Positions 4,935 to 41,821 of a stretch of 64,000 bases of DNA are shown piece after piece. This stretch comes from Hoeflea sp. YIM 152468. GTDB taxonomy: Bacteria > Pseudomonadota > Alphaproteobacteria > Rhizobiales > Rhizobiaceae. The notes beneath the pieces were generated by a model. That model searched no databases. It worked only from the letters and a program-made list of their open reading frames with translations, and was not told the DNA's origin. A program made the position numbers and the translations under genes. The stretch lies in the NCBI RefSeq assembly GCF_029210485.1, contig NZ_JARGET010000038.1, positions 310,001-374,000 on the forward strand, read 5' to 3'. Position 1 is the first letter of the stretch. The number at the start of each line of letters is the position of its first letter.

Positions 4935-6155
4935 ATGGCGCGCGCATTTCTGTTTGTTCTGGATTCTTTTGGCATTGGCGGAGCCCCTGACGCGGAAGCC
5001 TATGGCGATCTGGGCGCCGACACGCTGGGTCACATTGCCGAACAATGCGCCGCCGGGCTTGCCGACCGTCCCGGCGTGCGCAAGGGCCGTCTGTCGCTGC
5101 CGCATATGCAATCGCTCGGCCTGGCTGAAGCAGCGATCGCGGCATCGGGCAACCTTCCGGCCGGCTGGGTGCGCGCCGCCCGCCCCCGCGGCCTGCATGG
5201 CGCTGCGGCCGAAACATCGAAGGGCAAGGACACACCATCGGGGCACTGGGAGATCGCCGGCCAGCCGGTGATGTTCGACTGGGGCTATTTCCCCGATGTC
5301 GGCCCCGCTTTCAGCGACGAGCTGGTGGCCAAGATCGTGTCGGAGGCGGAGCTGCCGGGCATTTTGGGAAACTGCCACGCCTCGGGTACGGAAATCATCG
5401 CCCGGCTTGGTGTCGAGCACATGAAATCCGGCAAGCCGATCTGCTATACCTCGGCCGATTCCGTATTCCAGATTGCCGCACACGAACAGAGCTTCGGGCT
5501 GCAGAACCTGATCGATCTGTGCCAGATCGTGCGCAAGCTTGTCGATCCACTCAACATTGGCCGTGTCATTGCCCGGCCTTTCGTCGGCTCGGCTGAAGCG
5601 GGTTTTGACCGGACCGGCAACCGCCGCGATTTTTCGGTGCCGCCACCGGGGCCGACCTTGCTTGACGCGGTCAGCGAGAGCGGCCACCGGGTGTTTGCCG
5701 TCGGCAAGATCAGCGATATTTTCGCACACCAGGGTGTGACCGATCTGCGCAAGGCCAGCGGCAATGCCGCGCTTTTTGACGCCACACTGAAGGCAACACA
5801 GGATGCCGGGGACGGCGATCTGGTGTTCACCAATTTCGTCGATTTCGACATGCTGTACGGACATCGCCGCGATGTCGCAGGCTATGCCGCGGCACTGGAA
5901 CAGTTTGACGCCATGCTGCCGCGTTTTGCCAAGATGTTGAAACCGGGAGATCTGGTGATCATGACGGCGGATCACGGATGCGACCCAACCTGGCGCGGTA
6001 CGCAGCACACCCGCGAATGTGTGCCGATTCTGGGTTTCGGACCTGGAGTCGCAAGCCGCGACATCGGCGTGCGCACATCATTCTCCGATGTCGGCGCAAC
6101 ACTGGCGGGGCATCTGGGGCTGCCACGCGGCGACAATGGAAAGAGCTTTTTGTGA
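4935..6155 (+). CDS. deoB: Phosphopentomutase DeoB
   Basis: A 406-residue cytosolic alkaline-phosphatase-superfamily enzyme that interconverts (deoxy)ribose-1-phosphate and -5-phosphate, joining nucleoside phosphorylases to DeoC. Seen are the N-terminal metal site ([16 protein letters not shown]), the [11 protein letters not shown] segment and the C-terminal metal motif [10 protein letters not shown]...HTRE. The length is typical. ATG 4935 is preferred over a TTG 15 nt upstream because GGAG lies at proper spacing and homologues begin M-A-R. It overlaps the add start by 4 nt (GTGA), so the two are translationally coupled. It serves the salvage operon that faces it. Confidence 0.96.
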
Positions 6156-29536: not shown

Positions 29537-30562
29537 ATGGAAACCAAAGCGCCGAGAATTACCGATGTTGCACGGCTTGCCGGGGTCTCGACGGCGACCG
29601 TCAGCCGGGCGCTGAGCAAACCGGAAACAGTAGCGGAATCAACACGTAATGCGGTGCTTGCCGCCGCGGAGAAAAGCGGCTACCGGGTCAATCTTTCGGC
29701 CCGCAATCTGCGGCGTCAGCGCACCGGCGCCATCGTCGTGCTGGTCCCGAATCTGGGCAATCCGTTTTTCTCGGAGATACTCGCCGGCATCGAGGTGGCC
29801 CTGTCGGACGCCGACATCAACATGCTGGTTGTCGACACAAGGCAGGCCCATACAAAGCCGCAGCTGGTGCTGGAGTATCTGCACGCATCCCGGGCCGACG
29901 GAATCATTGCGCTGGATGGCTCCTTGCCTGACGAAATCCTTTCGGTGGCGAGTGCGGGAACCGGCGCCCCACCCATTATCTTTGCCTGTGAGTGGCCCCC
30001 GAAGGACGCATTTTTCTCGGTTCGCGCCAACAACAGCGCCGGCGCCGGGTTGGCGATTGCACATCTTGTCGGGCTGGGGCATCGCCAGATCGGAATGCTG
30101 GCGGGGCCGCCGGAAAACGTGCTGACCCGCAGCCGAAGTGCGGGCGCGGAAACGGAGATGGTGAACAGCGGCCTGGCTCTGGACCCGTCACACCTCTTTT
30201 TCGGCGACTTCAGCCTCGAATCCGGCGCGCGCGCGGCTCAGGCATGGCTTCGACTCGATCATCGCCCCAGCGCTGTCTTTTGCCAATCCGACCAGATGGC
30301 TTTCGGCTTCATCTCGGAACTGGCGCGCAACGATGTCGCGGTTCCCGGCGATGTGTCAGTGGTCGGGTTTGACGACATCGATATCGCCCGCCGCTTCATT
30401 CCGGCGCTGACCACCGTTTGCCAGCCCCGCAAGAAGCTGGGGCTGTACGCAGCCAAAATGCTGATTGACCATGTCCAGACCAACACCAGCCCGGCGATAG
30501 AAACGACGATACTGGAAGTCGAACTGATCGTGCGGGACAGCACACGGCAACTTGCCGGTTGA
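29537..30562 (+). CDS. LacI family transcriptional regulator
   Basis: A 341-residue repressor. The N-terminal HTH (about 8-27, ITDVARLAGVSTATVSRAL) and hinge are followed by a periplasmic-binding-like effector domain (GAIVVLVPNLGNPFFSEIL ... VVGFDDIDIARRFIPALTT). Start 29537 (METKAPRITD) gives the usual distance to the HTH. It is divergent from the sugar operon, with two matching palindromic operators between, so it very likely represses that operon and itself until the transported sugar binds. Confidence 0.93.
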   Translation: METKAPRITDVARLAGVSTATVSRALSKPETVAESTRNAVLAAAEKSGYRVNLSARNLRRQRTGAIVVLVPNLGNPFFSEILAGIEVALSDADINMLVVDTRQAHTKPQLVLEYLHASRADGIIALDGSLPDEILSVASAGTGAPPIIFACEWPPKDAFFSVRANNSAGAGLAIAHLVGLGHRQIGMLAGPPENVLTRSRSAGAETEMVNSGLALDPSHLFFGDFSLESGARAAQAWLRLDHRPSAVFCQSDQMAFGFISELARNDVAVPGDVSVVGFDDIDIARRFIPALTTVCQPRKKLGLYAAKMLIDHVQTNTSPAIETTILEVELIVRDSTRQLAG

Positions 30563-30571
30563 ATATTCGAG

Positions 30572-30610
30572 AGAAATTTCTTATATAAATGATCTTGAAT
30601 GTTTAAATAT
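30572..30610 (+). promoter_or_regulatory. AT-rich candidate promoter/operator of the ArsR gene
   Basis: In a GC-rich window this short gap is AT-rich. It holds the perfect palindrome AGAAATTTCT (30572-30581), a following TATATAAAT that could be a -10 region, and the near-palindrome ATGTTTAAATAT (30599-30610) just before the ArsR start. Auto-repression is likely for such regulators, but the exact operator cannot be fixed by eye. Confidence 0.4.
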
Positions 30611-30623
30611 CGGAACGCCGACC

Positions 30624-30950
30624 ATGCTTGACGCACACGACATGCTTGAAATGGAACCGCGGATTGGTGAGGCGGCGAAGCTGATGGAAATGCTGTCGCA
30701 GCCGGTGCGCCTGCGCATTCTTTGCATCCTGCTGGACGGAGAACACAGTGTGCTCAGGCTGGCGGCGATGGTCGGCCTGTCGCAGCCCGCCATGTCGCAC
30801 CATTTGCGCAAGCTGCGCGACGCGGATCTGGTCGAGACCAAGCGTGATGCCCAGACGATTTACTATTCGCTGAAAGGCAAGGAAGTGGCGGCTGTGCTGG
30901 AAGTTCTGCACCGGCTCTACTGCGCGGAGCCCGCGGAGGTCAGCGGCTAG
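30624..30950 (+). CDS. ArsR family repressor of SqrR/BigR (persulfide-sensing) type
   Basis: A 108-residue winged-helix repressor. The recognition helix is in LSQPAMSHHLRKLRDADLV. It has exactly two cysteines, Cys34 (RILCILLDGEHSV) and Cys100 (LHRLYC), separated by 66 residues, the same spacing as the Cys41/Cys107 pair of SqrR and the pair in BigR that sense persulfides; flanking residues (ILC-LL-GE-SV and the LYC end) also match. ArsR-type metal-binding ELCVCDL is absent. Start 30624 is chosen by length; 30642 is an alternative. It stands 227 nt before soeABC on the same strand, which suggests that sulfane sulfur controls sulfite oxidation. Confidence 0.75.
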   Translation: MLDAHDMLEMEPRIGEAAKLMEMLSQPVRLRILCILLDGEHSVLRLAAMVGLSQPAMSHHLRKLRDADLVETKRDAQTIYYSLKGKEVAAVLEVLHRLYCAEPAEVSG

Positions 30951-31177
30951 CCCGGCCATTTGCGATGCCCCACCCTGTTGCCCTTGGACAATCACCCCGC
31001 CCGTGCACGCCAATCTGGCCTTAAAGGAAGTCAACCTGGCTTTACCCGCCGCCCTTGACATTTCCACGGCTGCACGGTCCGTTTGCGCTGCGGTCGCGGA
31101 GGGCGCCCGCATCGGATTGCCGTACGGCAACAATGGAACGCGCAGCACCCTGGGGCAGCGCGTCTTCGGGAGGGCGA
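30951..31177 (+). other. 227-nt leader between ArsR and soeA
   Basis: GC-rich gap with no convincing open frame. No AT-rich palindrome like the one before the ArsR gene is seen, so soeABC may be read through from that promoter. The only clear element is the GGGAGGG ribosome site of soeA at its end. Confidence 0.4.
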
Positions 31178-34018
31178 ATGAACCAGACCAGCAGGGCTCC
31201 CAGCACGGCTGACGGCACAACCGAGATTCGCAAGACCACCTGTTACATGTGCGCCTGCCGCTGTGGCATTGATGTTCACATCGCCGACGGCAAGGTCCGC
31301 TATATCGAAGGCAATCGCGACCATCCGATCAACAAGGGCGTGCTGTGCGCCAAGGGATCGGCCGGGATCATGCAGCATTATTCGCCGGCCCGGCTGAAGA
31401 AGCCGCTGCTCAGAACCGGTGAACGCGGCGCGGGGCAATTCAAGGAAATCGAATGGGACGAGGCTTTGGCGCTGGCCACCGACTGGCTCGGCGACGTGCG
31501 GCGCAGCGATCCGCGCAAGCTGGCGTTTTTCACCGGCCGCGACCAGAGCCAGTCCATGACCGGCTGGTGGGCGCAAGCATTCGGCACGCCGAATTATGCC
31601 GCCCATGGCGGTTTCTGCTCGGTCAACATGGCCGCTGCCGGCATCTACACGATGGGCGGCGCCTTCTGGGAATTCGGCGCGCCGGACTGGGAAAAGACCG
31701 AGCTGTTCATGATTTTCGGCGTCGCCGAGGATCATGATTCCAACCCGATCAAGATGGGGCTGGGCAAACTGAAAGAACGCGGCGTCAAGGTGATCGGCGT
31801 CAACCCGGTGCGCACCGGCTACAATGCCATTGCCGACGAATGGCTCGGCATCACGCCGGGCACCGACGGGCTGCTGATCCTGGCGCTGGTGCACGAACTG
31901 ATGCGCGCCGGCAAGATCGATGTCGATTACCTGATCCGTTACACCAATGCGCCCTGGCTGGTGATTGACGACCCCGACAGCGCTGACCACGGCCTGTTTG
32001 TGCGTGACGAAGAGGGTACGCCGCTGGTGGCCGAGCGGACAAGCGGCAAGGCACTGCCGTCGTCCACCCCAGGGATCAAGCCCGCCCTGAAAGGCCGGTT
32101 CGACTTGCCCGACGGTCGCTTCGCCATTCCGGTGTTCGAACTGCTGGCGCAAAAATATCTTGATCCGCAATATGCCCCTGCCGAGGTTGCCGAACGCACC
32201 GGAATTGCGGCTGACACCATCATCCGCATTGCCGGCGAGATTGCCGAGGCGGCGTTCGAGCGCGAACTCATCATCGAGCAGCCCTGGACCGACATGAAAG
32301 GCGAACGCCACGAGCGGATGATCGGCAGGCCGGTGGCGTTTCACGCCATGCGCGGCATCTCGGCCCATTCCAACGGATTTCAGACCTGCCGGGCGCTGCA
32401 TCTGCTGCAGATCCTGGTCGGCTCCATTGATTGCCCCGGCGGTTTCCGGTTCAAGCCACCCTATCCGCGCCCCGTTGCCGGCCAGCCACGGCCGCATGGC
32501 GGCGCCTGCGCCGACACCGCGCTGGCGGGCCCGCATCTGGGCTATCCGCGCGGGCCGGAAGATTTATTGCTCGAAGCCGACGGCGCGACGGCGCAGCGCA
32601 TCGACAAGGCGTTCTCGTGGGATGCGCCGCTGTCGGCGCACGGCATGATGCATATGGTGATTTCCAATGCCCATGCGCGCGATCCCTATGGCATTGATGT
32701 CTTGTTCATGTACATGGCCAACATGGCATGGAATTCGTCGATGAACTCCTCGTCGGTGATGGATATGCTCACCGACAAGGATGAGAAGGGCGATTATGTG
32801 ATCCCGAAGATCATCTATTCCGACGCCTATTCGTCAGAAATGGTGGCGTTTGCCGATCTGATCCTGCCCGACACCACCTATCTCGAACGGCACGACTGCA
32901 TTTCGCTTCTCGACCGGCCGATCAGCGAACCCGAAGCGCTGTGCGATTCGATCCGCTGGCCGGTGGTCGAACCCGATCGCGACGTACGCGGCTTCCAGAG
33001 CGTGCTGCTTGATCTCGGCGCGCGGCTGAAGCTTCCGGGCATGGTCACTGAGGATGGATCACCGGCCTACAAAGACTATGCCGACTACATCGTCAATCAC
33101 CAGCGCAAACCCGGCATCGGGCCGCTGTCAGGCTGGCGCGGCGAGGACGGCGACAAGACCGGGCGCGGCAAGCCCAATCCGAACCAGCTCGAGCGCTATA
33201 TCGAGAATGGCGGATTTTCACAGGTGCATGTGCCCATGGAAGCGCATTACTTCAAACACGCCAACCGGGCCTGGAGCGACTGGGCGATCGAAAAAGGCCT
33301 GCAGGACGGCCCGGTGGAAAACATCTTCCAGCTCTATCTCGAACCCTTGCGCAAGTTCCAGCTCGCCGCCGAAGGCAAGATCAAGCCGGTGCCGCCGGAA
33401 CATCATCGGGAGCGGATCAGATCCTGTTTCGATCCGCTGCCAACCTGGTATCCGCCGTTTGCCGATGACGGGCTGAGCGAGGAGGCCTATCCGCTGCACG
33501 CCATCACCCAGCGGCCGGCGGCGATGTATCATTCCTGGGGCTCGCAGAATGCCTGGCTGCGGCAGATCCACGGCGAAAACGCGCTCTATGTGCCGGGTGA
33601 TGTCTGCGACAGCCACGGACTGGAGACCGGCGACTGGGCGCTGGTGTCCTCGCAATCGGGCGAGATCCGGGTCAGGATTGCGCGCATGGACGCGGTCAAC
33701 GGCGCGACGCTGTGGACCTGGAACGCCATCGGCAAGCGCTCCGGCGCCTGGGCGCTTGATGCCGACGCACCGGAAGCAACCCGCGGGTTCCTGCTCAACC
33801 ATCTGATCGATGAATTGCTGCCGCCGAAAGGCGATGGCCGACGCTGGGCCAATTCCGATCCGATCACCGGTCAGGCGGCGTGGTTCGATCTGCGGGTGGC
33901 GATCCGCAAGGATGCCGATCAAACCACGGGTATCAGCCTGCCGCATGCCGCCTCCCAGGCAAGCCCGGTCGGGCCGGCGCCGAGGAATGTCAGTTTCGGA
34001 CCGGAGGCCGCTGAATGA
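31178..34018 (+). CDS. soeA: Molybdopterin sulfite dehydrogenase catalytic subunit (SoeA type)
   Basis: A 946-residue DMSO-reductase-family molybdenum enzyme. The N-terminal [4Fe-4S] ligands are Cys22, Cys25, Cys29 and Cys57 (TCYMCACRCG ... GVLCAKG). Cys147 in HGGFCSVN is the probable molybdenum ligand. There is no twin-arginine signal, so the enzyme is cytoplasmic, as SoeA is; periplasmic relatives such as PsrA/DmsA carry one. The C-terminal molydopterin-binding domain is about 770-890. GGGAGGG fixes ATG 31178. The stop overlaps soeB by 4 nt. The assignment to sulfite oxidation (to sulfate, electrons to quinone) is by resemblance of all three subunits. Confidence 0.82.
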   Translation: MNQTSRAPSTADGTTEIRKTTCYMCACRCGIDVHIADGKVRYIEGNRDHPINKGVLCAKGSAGIMQHYSPARLKKPLLRTGERGAGQFKEIEWDEALALATDWLGDVRRSDPRKLAFFTGRDQSQSMTGWWAQAFGTPNYAAHGGFCSVNMAAAGIYTMGGAFWEFGAPDWEKTELFMIFGVAEDHDSNPIKMGLGKLKERGVKVIGVNPVRTGYNAIADEWLGITPGTDGLLILALVHELMRAGKIDVDYLIRYTNAPWLVIDDPDSADHGLFVRDEEGTPLVAERTSGKALPSSTPGIKPALKGRFDLPDGRFAIPVFELLAQKYLDPQYAPAEVAERTGIAADTIIRIAGEIAEAAFERELIIEQPWTDMKGERHERMIGRPVAFHAMRGISAHSNGFQTCRALHLLQILVGSIDCPGGFRFKPPYPRPVAGQPRPHGGACADTALAGPHLGYPRGPEDLLLEADGATAQRIDKAFSWDAPLSAHGMMHMVISNAHARDPYGIDVLFMYMANMAWNSSMNSSSVMDMLTDKDEKGDYVIPKIIYSDAYSSEMVAFADLILPDTTYLERHDCISLLDRPISEPEALCDSIRWPVVEPDRDVRGFQSVLLDLGARLKLPGMVTEDGSPAYKDYADYIVNHQRKPGIGPLSGWRGEDGDKTGRGKPNPNQLERYIENGGFSQVHVPMEAHYFKHANRAWSDWAIEKGLQDGPVENIFQLYLEPLRKFQLAAEGKIKPVPPEHHRERIRSCFDPLPTWYPPFADDGLSEEAYPLHAITQRPAAMYHSWGSQNAWLRQIHGENALYVPGDVCDSHGLETGDWALVSSQSGEIRVRIARMDAVNGATLWTWNAIGKRSGAWALDADAPEATRGFLLNHLIDELLPPKGDGRRWANSDPITGQAAWFDLRVAIRKDADQTTGISLPHAASQASPVGPAPRNVSFGPEAAE

Positions 34019-34761
34019 CCCGTCTTCCCGCGACCACCGAAAAGCGGCTCGGCCTTGTCATCGATCTCGACACCTGCGTCGGCTGTCACGCCTGCGCGGT
34101 CAGTTGCAAGGAATGGAACACCAGCGCCGGAGCCTCGCCGCTGTCCGATGTCGACGCCTATGGCGCTGATGTGTCCGGCGCCTGGCTGAACCGGATCCAC
34201 ACTTTCGAAGTCACCCCCGAGGGGGCACCAGCGCAGATCGTGCATTTCCCCAAATCCTGCCTGCATTGCGATGACGCGCCGTGCGTGACCGTGTGCCCGA
34301 CCGGCGCCAGCTACAAGCGGCCCGAAGACGGCATCGTGCTGGTCGACGAGGATTTGTGCATCGGCTGCGGCCTGTGCGCCTGGGCCTGCCCTTATGGCGC
34401 GCGGGAAATGGACCCGGTCGAAAACGTGATGAAGAAATGCACCCTGTGCGTCGACCGGATCTACAGCGAGACCCTGGCTGAAGAAGACCGGATTCCGGCC
34501 TGCGTGCGCACCTGCCCTTCCAGTGCGCGGCATTTTGGCGATTTCAATGACCCGGACTCCAATGTTTCACAACTGGTGGCAGACCGGGGCGGCATCGACC
34601 TGATGCCGGAGATGGGGACACGCCCGGTCAACAAGTACCTGCCGCCGCGGCCGAAAACCCGGTCGCAGCCGGCGCCCGCGCCGGCCCTTGATCCAACACC
34701 TGCGCCCAAGGCCGACGGGTTCCTCGGCTGGCTCGACGCCGCACTCGACAGACTCGGATAA
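34015..34761 (+). CDS. soeB: Four-cluster ferredoxin subunit (SoeB type)
   Basis: A 248-residue iron-sulfur protein with 16 cysteines in four [4Fe-4S] sets: Cys21/24/27/31 (DTCVGCHACAVSC), Cys82/85/90/94, Cys115/118/121/125 and Cys142/145/163/167. This is the DmsB/PsrB arrangement; the opening RLGLVIDLDTCVGCHAC is characteristic of SoeB. A Pro-rich tail ends in a short amphipathic helix. It passes electrons from SoeA to the membrane subunit. It overlaps soeA (ATGA) and precedes soeC by 4 nt. Confidence 0.85.
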   Translation: MTRLPATTEKRLGLVIDLDTCVGCHACAVSCKEWNTSAGASPLSDVDAYGADVSGAWLNRIHTFEVTPEGAPAQIVHFPKSCLHCDDAPCVTVCPTGASYKRPEDGIVLVDEDLCIGCGLCAWACPYGAREMDPVENVMKKCTLCVDRIYSETLAEEDRIPACVRTCPSSARHFGDFNDPDSNVSQLVADRGGIDLMPEMGTRPVNKYLPPRPKTRSQPAPAPALDPTPAPKADGFLGWLDAALDRLG

Positions 34762-34765
34762 TCCC

Positions 34766-35677
34766 ATGCACCCTGCAGTTTCCGTTATCTTCTTTACCGT
34801 CATGTCGGGCGCCGGTTTTGGCATGATCTTTTTGCTCGGGCTCGGGTTTCCAGTCGACGGCGGCGCCGGGAAGGTGTTTTTGGTGTCGCTGACCGGTGGC
34901 GGCCTCGCGGTCGCGGGCCTGCTGGCTTCAACCTTTCATCTCGGCCATCCCGAGCGGGCCTGGCGGGCGCTCAGCCAATGGCGGACGAGCTGGCTGTCGC
35001 GCGAAGGCATCGCCGCCATCATGACGCTGATGCTCTTCGGGCTCTATGCGTTGATCTGGATGACAAGCGGAACCCGCAGTTCGCTGCTGGGGTGGACGGC
35101 AGCCCTTGGCGCGGCGGCAACAGTGTTCACCACCTCGATGATCTATGCGCAGCTCAAGACCGTGCCGCAATGGAACAGCCCGCTCACGCCGGCGGTCTAT
35201 TCCGGCTTTGCGCTCGGCTCGGGCTGGTTGCTGGCCTCCGCATTCGGAAATCACGGATATGCCGAGGTCTGGGGCATGGTGCTCGTCGCTCTGGCCTGGT
35301 CAGCCAAATGGCTCTGGTGGGTTCGGGCCGGCCGGGCGCGGCTTGCCGATTCGGGCTCATCGCCGGAGACGGCAACCGGACTCGGCTTGATCGGCAAGGT
35401 GCGCCTGCTCGAACGCCCGCACACCGGCGAGAATTACCTCACCCGTGAAATGGTTCACCGCATAGGTCGCAAACACGCCCGCACCCTGCGCATGCTGGCC
35501 TTGCTGCTGGGCGCCCTCGTGCCCCTTGTGATCCTTGCACTCATCGCGCTCAGCGGCGCCCCGGCGCTTTTCATCCTGGCCGCAGCGCTGTCGATGAGTG
35601 TCGGACTGCTGGCAGAACGCTGGCTGTTCTTCGCCGAAGCCGAACATGCGGTGTCGCTCTATTACGGCCACCGCTGA
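34766..35677 (+). CDS. soeC: Membrane anchor subunit, DmsC family (SoeC type)
   Basis: A 303-residue protein with eight or so membrane helices of the DmsC family. The segment STFHLGHPERAWRALSQWRTSWLSREG, about 55-80 residues in, is the family hallmark. It anchors SoeAB to the cytoplasmic face and reduces quinone. ATG 34766 lies 4 nt after soeB. Nothing follows on this strand; the next gene is convergent 21 nt away, with no obvious terminator. Confidence 0.86.
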   Translation: MHPAVSVIFFTVMSGAGFGMIFLLGLGFPVDGGAGKVFLVSLTGGGLAVAGLLASTFHLGHPERAWRALSQWRTSWLSREGIAAIMTLMLFGLYALIWMTSGTRSSLLGWTAALGAAATVFTTSMIYAQLKTVPQWNSPLTPAVYSGFALGSGWLLASAFGNHGYAEVWGMVLVALAWSAKWLWWVRAGRARLADSGSSPETATGLGLIGKVRLLERPHTGENYLTREMVHRIGRKHARTLRMLALLLGALVPLVILALIALSGAPALFILAAALSMSVGLLAERWLFFAEAEHAVSLYYGHR

Positions 35678-40234: not shown

Positions 40235-41821
40235 ATGCCTTCACTTATGAATGATTCGCCCACAAATGCCGCCGAGTTCACGGTCAGTGAGCTGTCTGGC
40301 TCGATCAAGCGGACCGTCGAGGATACGTTCGGCTATGTCCGGGTCCGCGGCGAGATATCCGGCTATCGCGGGCCGCACTCCTCAGGTCATGCCTATTTTT
40401 CGTTGAAGGATGACAAAGCCCGTATCGAAGCGGTGATCTGGAGAGGCGTGTTCTCGCGGCTCAAACACCGGCCCGAAGAAGGGCTGGAAGTGATCGCCAC
40501 GGGCAAGATCACCACCTATCCTGGTTCGTCGAAATACCAGATCGTGATCGATTCGATCGAACCTGCCGGGGCCGGGGCGTTGATGGCGCTGATCGAGGAG
40601 CGCCGGCGCACGCTCGCCGCCGAAGGCCTGTTTGACGAAGCGCGCAAGCAATTGCTGCCCTCTATGCCGCTGGTGATCGGCGTGGTGACATCACCGACAG
40701 GGGCGGTGATTCGCGATATCCTGCACCGGATCGAAGACCGGTTTCCCGTCCATGTCATTGTCTGGCCGGTCCGGGTTCAGGGCGAGACGTCAGGCGAGGA
40801 AGTGTCTCGCGCCATTGCCGGGTTCAACGCGCTTGGTCCAGACGGTCCGATCAAACGACCCGACCTGGTCATCGTTGCGCGGGGCGGCGGCAGCCTTGAA
40901 GACCTTTGGGGTTTCAATGACGAAGCGGTGGTGCGCGCCGCAGCGAGCTCGGAAATACCGCTGATCTCGGCGGTCGGCCACGAGACCGACTGGACGCTGA
41001 TTGACCACGCCAGCGACCGGCGCGCGCCGACGCCGACGGGGGCTGCGGAAATGGCAGTCCCGGTCAAGGCGGACCTCGAAGCACAGATTGCCGCGTTCAC
41101 GGCCCGGTTGAAATCGGCCCAGTCACGCACCCTTGACCGCCGCCGCGAGGCGGTCCGCTCGCTGGCGCGGGCACTGCCGACGCTCGACAGCGTGCTGGCG
41201 CTGCCGCGGCAGCGGCTGGACCGGTCGGGTCAGGGGCTTGGCCAAGCGCTGCAACTCAACACGGCAAACCGGCGGCGCAGTTTCGACCGGCAGGCCGGGC
41301 GGCTCACGCCGGTCGCGCTGGTTTCGGCGATTCGGGAAAAGCGCCAGATGGTGCGCGACAGGATTTTGCGCGCCGATCGCTCACAGGAGCGGCGGCTCGA
41401 TGGGTGGCGGTCACGGCTGGAGCGCCATGCTCAGGTTCTTGCGGCGGTGCCTCGCCGGATCGCCGACATCCATGCGCGCGGGCGGGATCGCCTCACAGAC
41501 CTTGGCCGCAGAAGCGACAGCACGCTGACCATGATGCTGGATCGGCGCAAACGTGGCCTCGACGCCCAGGCGCGGATGCTCAACTCGCTGTCGCATCACA
41601 GCGTGCTGGGGCGGGGATTTGCGGTGATCCGCGATTGTGACCGCAAGGTCCTGGCGCGGGCTGCTCAGGTCGATGCCGGCACCATGCTGGCCATCGAGTT
41701 TGCAGACGGCGAGGTCTCGGCTCTTGCCAACAGTGGCGACAAGCCTGTGTTGCGACCGAAGAAGCCGGTTCGCACCAAAGCCGGCAAGCCGGCCGATCAG
41801 AAACAAGGCGACTTGTTCTGA
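40235..41821 (+). CDS. xseA: Exodeoxyribonuclease VII large subunit
   Basis: A 528-residue nuclease subunit that, with XseB, degrades single-stranded DNA. An N-terminal OB fold (15-110, [32 protein letters not shown]) is followed by the catalytic domain ([48 protein letters not shown]) and a long coiled coil, then a basic tail. ATG 40235 keeps the rhizobial beginning M-x4[10 protein letters not shown]; ATG 40247 is possible. xseB is not adjacent. A 220-nt gap precedes it, without a clear promoter. Confidence 0.94.

Follow-up and report, generated by a model that had tools for sequence, protein, structure and literature searches.

What is a small, two-cysteine regulator of the ArsR family doing directly in front of the genes for a putative sulfite-oxidising enzyme? 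The question is posed by a stretch of 64,000 nucleotides – the window – from a Hoeflea genome of 4.27 Mb in 40 contigs, in which an earlier note had seen a SqrR/BigR-like persulfide sensor encoded next to soeABC. The arrangement is as described there: arsR (30624..30950, + strand) encodes a protein of 108 residues whose sole cysteines, C34 and C100, stand 66 apart, and after a gap of 227 nt it is followed on the same strand by soeABC (31178–35677). The mechanically called open reading frame of arsR begins with a TTG at 30552, and the N-terminus added in this way would bring one more cysteine; the ATG at 30624 is the start of the Hoeflea orthologues in our alignment A1. Upstream of arsR lies a gene for a LacI-family regulator (29537..30562, + strand; Pfam LacI and Peripla_BP_3), whose start is uncertain.

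The three genes downstream, also on the + strand, encode a SoeA-like molybdopterin catalytic subunit (31178..34018; PF00384 and PF04879, Fe4S4), a SoeB-like 4Fe-4S subunit (34015..34761; PF13247 and other 4Fe-4S dicluster families) and a SoeC-like membrane anchor (34766..35677; PF04976, DmsC, the Pfam run having started from 34763). A molybdoprotein, an iron–sulfur protein and a DmsC-type anchor, with no Tat signal found by eye, make up a SoeABC-type set, as had been proposed. The enzyme likely oxidises sulfite to sulfate.

What kind of sensor, then, does arsR encode? Both cysteines are invariant in all 19 rows of alignment A1; alignment A2, of 41 rows, keeps the first throughout and the second almost throughout. 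Their spacing is not specific to SqrR and BigR, because HlyU and a NolR-like paralogue in the window genome carry the same 66 residues, and it was set aside as insufficient proof of persulfide sensing; the paralogue (L211) differs in having this pair from the solved NolR segment. The Pfam helix–turn–helix family PF01022 (HTH_5) matches the window protein with 56.3 bits against a cut-off of 22. The earlier note had held that a place in a metal-sensing ArsR branch would speak against its reading; a maximum-likelihood tree built on 47 rows instead groups the protein with SqrR, BigR, HlyU, YgaV and NolR, split from SmtB, ArsR, SrnR and two further ArsR proteins of its own genome with 95/97 support, a value to be read with the partial and long outgroup rows and with the program's warning of long-branch joins that may be false. 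Its companions on that side are the blh-linked proteins of G029, L051 and G018 (85/35 and 94/85, not strong), and it lies nearer to this subclade than to Rhodobacter capsulatus SqrR or Xylella fastidiosa BigR, again without strong support.

An AlphaFold2 model of the protein (mean pLDDT 87.7) finds its first match in the PDB in HlyU (rank 1), followed by BigR (8), NolR (9), YgaV (11), SqrR (13), SmtB (26) and CzrA (29), a ranking among regulators that all have the same fold. The NCBIfam equivalog model for BigR (NF040642) gives 85.7 bits against a cut-off of 155; because all eight tested relatives linked to blh or a persulfide dioxygenase (PDO) gene miss that cut-off too, with 77–90 bits, the model was not used as proof of membership either way. 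Tree, fold and cysteine pair speak for membership in the SqrR/BigR group. On its sequence, the window protein is probably a BigR-type ArsR repressor that senses reactive sulfur.

The neighbourhood of arsR and soeA is a feature of the genus. Across a set of 18 Hoeflea genomes (G000–G017, G000 being the window genome) the two genes are adjacent in 18/18, with orthologues 75–89% identical to the window protein encoded directly before soeA in all 17 others. In 17 genomes the lacI gene lies directly upstream of arsR; G009 is the exception, with lacI about 5 kb off and arsR and soeABC still together. Outside the genus, no ArsR-family match was found upstream of soeA at 114 other Rhizobiaceae loci (with flanks of 1.5 kb at 25 and of up to 2.6 kb at 89; at least 1 kb at 113), taken from the 121 non-Hoeflea Rhizobiaceae genomes with soeA after seven with incomplete soeA matches had been left out. 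The same holds for 49 loci from elsewhere in the Alphaproteobacteria (46 of them with 1 kb or more), which come from the 63 non-own genomes with soeA in the search of the class; at most soeA loci it was the upstream side that was read. A weak ArsR match in L337 was set aside, as it falls inside soeA. Adjacency in 18/18 genomes, together with invariant cysteines, makes the pairing more than chance.

Where might such a repressor bind? A candidate core promoter, P1, can be read at 30559..30587 (+ strand; TTGAAT–17 nt–TATATA), its −35 element overlapped by the lacI stop codon, and by eye TTGAA stands ahead of TATATAA in 18/18 Hoeflea genomes. The consensus promoter scanner did not list P1; this promoter and terminator scan, which returned about as many matches as in shuffled sequences, was discarded. 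A genome-wide pattern search places a candidate BigR operator, TATATAAR-N9-ATRTKYA, at 30582..30605 (+ strand), over the −10 element. The site lies inside the stretch 30560–30625 that the earlier note had picked for binding by the repressor, and it recurs before the Hoeflea blh operon. In every Hoeflea genome TATATAA is found 38–59 nt from the arsR ATG, and in 17/18 RATGTT follows it with no more than one mismatch; the whole arsR site keeps within one mismatch in 16/18, G014 and G016 exceeding it. The same pattern also stands before arsR in L032, L033, L034 and L051. Upstream of soeA elsewhere, no exact match to it occurs at the 114 Rhizobiaceae or the 49 other loci. Three loci of another Rhizobiaceae genus (L138, L140, L144) have a conserved TTTATATAAGGAATCCTTAATATAAG-like AT-rich stretch before soeA.

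The second location of the site leads to the relatives of the window protein. The blh-type persulfide dioxygenase operon is the classic target of BigR. Among the 80 matches listed in an ArsR scan, at least four orthologues (G029, G111, G018 and L051; 69–74% identity) adjoin an operon of this type, with two YeeE-type genes, a metallo-beta-lactamase gene resembling persulfide dioxygenases, SulP and, in two cases, TauE. Orthologues of about 70% identity in the Rhodobacteraceae L052 (Planktomarina) and L053 have no soe or blh match within 12 kb. The G030 orthologue (77%) adjoins the acetate kinase gene ackA in a genome with neither soe nor an exact operator site. Both the window (40235–41821) and G030 (L031, 4811–6412), in which no soeA was detected, have an xseA gene less than 10 kb from arsR or its orthologue, a possible remnant of a common gene order.

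Hoeflea itself carries a yeeE–yeeE–persulfide dioxygenase–SulP operon, which in the window genome lies on another contig (G000:C14), away from arsR–soe. The dioxygenase is 82% identical in the window genome and has a counterpart at 80–84% in 16/18 Hoeflea genomes. Among solved proteins, metallo-beta-lactamase ones match it first and ETHE1 (4chl) more distantly, so that its persulfide dioxygenase activity is a prediction. A tblastn search with the window ArsR detected no such gene beside the Hoeflea PDO in 16 loci with flanks of up to 1.5 kb and five longer ones (L178–L182). The window genome also has a second dioxygenase-like gene, 41% identical (L183, 8122–8973).

The operator links the two separate loci. 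Aligned blh promoters of Hoeflea read [CT]TTGAATAT[GA]G...TTATATATAT in 14/14 cases, the reverse complement of TATATAAR-N9-ATRTKYA; the pattern was written with this alignment and the sites before arsR in view, though it would also follow from the arsR sites and the canonical ones by themselves. With up to one mismatch allowed, the window genome holds two sites against one for the reversed control. Both are exact – one before arsR (340582 on C32, window 30582) and one before blh (131206 on C14) – against 0.008 exact sites expected from the composition of the window. The 18 Hoeflea genomes together have 52 sites within one mismatch against 12 for the reversed control, and of the 28 exact ones 15 precede the PDO operon, 10 precede arsR and one a gene for a YgaP-type transmembrane domain (YgaP-TM), the other two falling on contigs that were not read. 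Where site and PDO fall on the same contig, an exact site precedes the PDO operon in 15/15 genomes, a count that leaves out G002 (PDO at a contig edge) and G007 and G008 (no strong PDO match; 77 and 75% complete) and includes G009, whose dioxygenase has no yeeE genes nearby. Seen as regulator of a bigR–blh system, the Hoeflea arsR thus lacks the adjacency to blh that at least four near relatives have, and shares the site of its own gene with that operon.

A matrix built from the 18 arsR sites finds its best match on the operator in 14/14 blh promoters (6 to 21 bits), scores as high being reached by 4–16 of 4000 background windows, among which YgaP-TM sites may remain, and by 0–6 of 3000 shuffles. 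On the four canonical promoters the same matrix performs less well, with 24.5 on the site in L033 and a low 2.4 in L034, and its best match in L032 and L051 falls on another stretch.

From the computed sensor class, its constant place next to soe and the site common to both loci we infer DNA binding, repression, effector, read-through, enzyme activities and a physiological role, and on this basis we think it probable that a BigR-type repressor, once split off from the blh operon and now placed with soeABC, coordinates the oxidation of persulfide to sulfite with that of sulfite to sulfate. Reduced ArsR would bind TATATAAR-N9-ATRTKYA over the core promoter and block transcription, both at its own promoter P1, from which read-through along arsR–soeABC may occur, and in trans at the promoter of the yeeE–yeeE–persulfide dioxygenase–SulP operon on G000:C14; as a likely docking site lies before both arsR–soe and blh, one sensor may run both steps. 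Persulfide or polysulfide would then link C34 and C100, and ArsR would leave the DNA. The related SoxR comes off DNA with polysulfide, mildly with thiosulfate and not with sulfite (PMC10451225); by analogy, persulfide would be a likelier signal than sulfite. Dioxygenase and SoeABC, making sulfite from persulfide and sulfate from sulfite, respectively, would be induced together, and toxic sulfite would therefore be removed as it forms.

The metabolic setting offers more than one origin for that sulfite. Persulfide dioxygenase yields sulfite, which is toxic, and with xsc over its cut-off in 17/18 Hoeflea genomes – in the window genome on the same contig as soe – sulfonates would be another source; with dioxygenase and xsc both present, sulfite could thus arise from persulfide and sulfonates alike. 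Also encoded in the window genome are a sox cluster, in which SoxX, Y, A, B and C exceed their cut-offs, a SqrR/SoxR-like regulator close to it (L213 / L222, about 5733–6032), with Trp in place of the first sensing cysteine, and an SQR-like flavoprotein that stays under its cut-off.

The gap between arsR and soeA raises the first rival explanation. It contains direct repeats, CTGGnCTTA / CTGGnTTTA, with a 21-nt period, followed by TTGACA (31015..31060, + strand), a promoter-like element, absent from the earlier note, that emerged from comparison of the Hoeflea gaps and is here called P2. CTGGnnTTA-like repeats and TTGAC, the latter mostly followed by TCCGTTTG, are found in 17/18 arsR–soeA gaps, more weakly in G017 and not at all in G009, and P2 is absent from 25 non-Hoeflea soeA promoters. 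No BigR site was found in P2, and the gap shows no good intrinsic terminator. Since P2 is conserved without a BigR site, soe may be driven independently of ArsR; with no good terminator in the gap, soeABC may be read from P1, P2 or both. The Hoeflea-specific 21-nt repeats ahead of TTGACA resemble an activator site.

The repressor might, on this evidence, govern itself and blh, while soeABC is transcribed mainly from P2 under another regulator that answers to signals derived from sulfonates or sulfite, the proximity of arsR and soe mattering little. The conservation of P2, the presence of xsc and the want of any ArsR upstream of soeA at the 114 other Rhizobiaceae loci favour this account; the pair kept together in all 18 genomes, even in G009 with lacI displaced and P2 unseen, and the stretch free of a good terminator weigh against it, and we hold it to be unlikely. 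Given P2, soe may nonetheless be run partly or wholly otherwise than by the BigR-type repressor.

Another rival concerns what SoeABC does. The nearest solved chain to SoeA by sequence is the thiosulfate reductase 2vpw, its top NCBIfam match, far under the cut-off, is PhsA, and SoeA homologues in plasmid records are annotated just as belonging to the molybdopterin oxidoreductase family. That the enzyme, within the same superfamily, is instead an oxidoreductase for polysulfide or thiosulfate seems to us quite improbable, given that no Tat signal was seen, the DmsC-type anchor and the PDO neighbours at two other soe loci. At these loci, 2 of the 49 from other alphaproteobacteria (L326, 1501–5330; L350, 1541–3200), a dioxygenase-like gene 53–54% identical lies divergent to soeA, less than 200 nt away, an arrangement that hints independently at joint action of the two enzymes.

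Could another two-cysteine paralogue with the same DNA preference, such as the SqrR-like protein on G000:C16, run the blh operon? NolR-like, SqrR-like and SoxR-like relatives are indeed encoded in the window genome, yet the operator also stands directly before the window arsR, and the distribution of exact sites points the same way: in the stricter form, ATRTKCA, they occur in 21 of 76 genomes, namely the 18 of Hoeflea, G018 and G029, which both carry the ArsR orthologue, and the AT-rich G075, the only genome where the reversed control also matches. Apart from G075, exact sites are thus found only where a soe- or blh-linked orthologue is present, and we give the paralogue little chance. Least probable of all, and very much so, is that ArsR senses a metal, a peroxide or another thiol oxidant rather than persulfide: the one NCBIfam model to exceed its cut-off describes a generic metalloregulator subfamily, and oxidants can turn cysteine pairs into disulfides, but tree and fold place the protein elsewhere and its candidate targets resemble sulfur genes.

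If a BigR-type repressor does coordinate the two oxidation steps, how did the wiring arise? It seems rather likely, albeit less so than the coordination itself, that in an ancestor of Hoeflea the BigR of a blh operon parted from blh, joined soeABC and kept the blh operator, which would have given a genus-wide regulon of two loci – perhaps three, with a YgaP-type gene – that co-induces sulfite production and removal as a feed-forward safeguard. A repressor would then have swapped its neighbour gene and kept its distant target, and sulfane-sulfur sensing would be tied directly to sulfite removal in a genus that would also make sulfite from sulfonates through xsc.

The BigR of X. fastidiosa and Agrobacterium (PMC5823870) shares with the Hoeflea protein the ArsR fold, the cysteine pair 66 residues apart and the link to a persulfide dioxygenase operon; the Hoeflea arsR differs in adjoining soeABC away from blh, and its product stays under the NCBIfam BigR cut-off. 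That paper describes the system of plant-associated bacteria with a sulfite exporter, so that sulfite exported there would be oxidised in Hoeflea, the same class of sensor being wired to an enzyme expected to turn sulfite into sulfate. SqrR of R. capsulatus is alike in cysteine spacing and fold; it is 35–37% identical in the structure alignment, and a separate SqrR-like paralogue exists in the window genome. SoxR and sHdrR of Hyphomicrobium denitrificans are likewise ArsR repressors that respond to sulfane sulfur and act on genes for sulfur oxidation, their targets being sox and shdr, in an organism described without efficient sulfite oxidation (PMC10451225 and PMC12423496). The kind of regulator is known; in the open papers searched (including PMC8147356, PMC6620896 and PMC9774590) no link between BigR or SqrR and soe was found.

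A further parallel is found in the YgaV–YgaP pair of Escherichia coli, where the regulator is related and the partner has the kind of membrane domain encoded by the candidate third target in Hoeflea; we know of no link of that pair to soe or blh. In 17/18 Hoeflea genomes there is a small gene whose product carries the YgaP-like transmembrane domain (PF11127). Its promoter carries the operator within one mismatch in 6/17, and by eye ATAAAACAT with the same surroundings can be seen in 13/17, including the window genome, whose copy departs from the pattern at two positions. We regard this gene as a possible third target of ArsR. As read by eye, the gene (L209, L194–L208) lies between thioesterase-like and thioredoxin-like genes.
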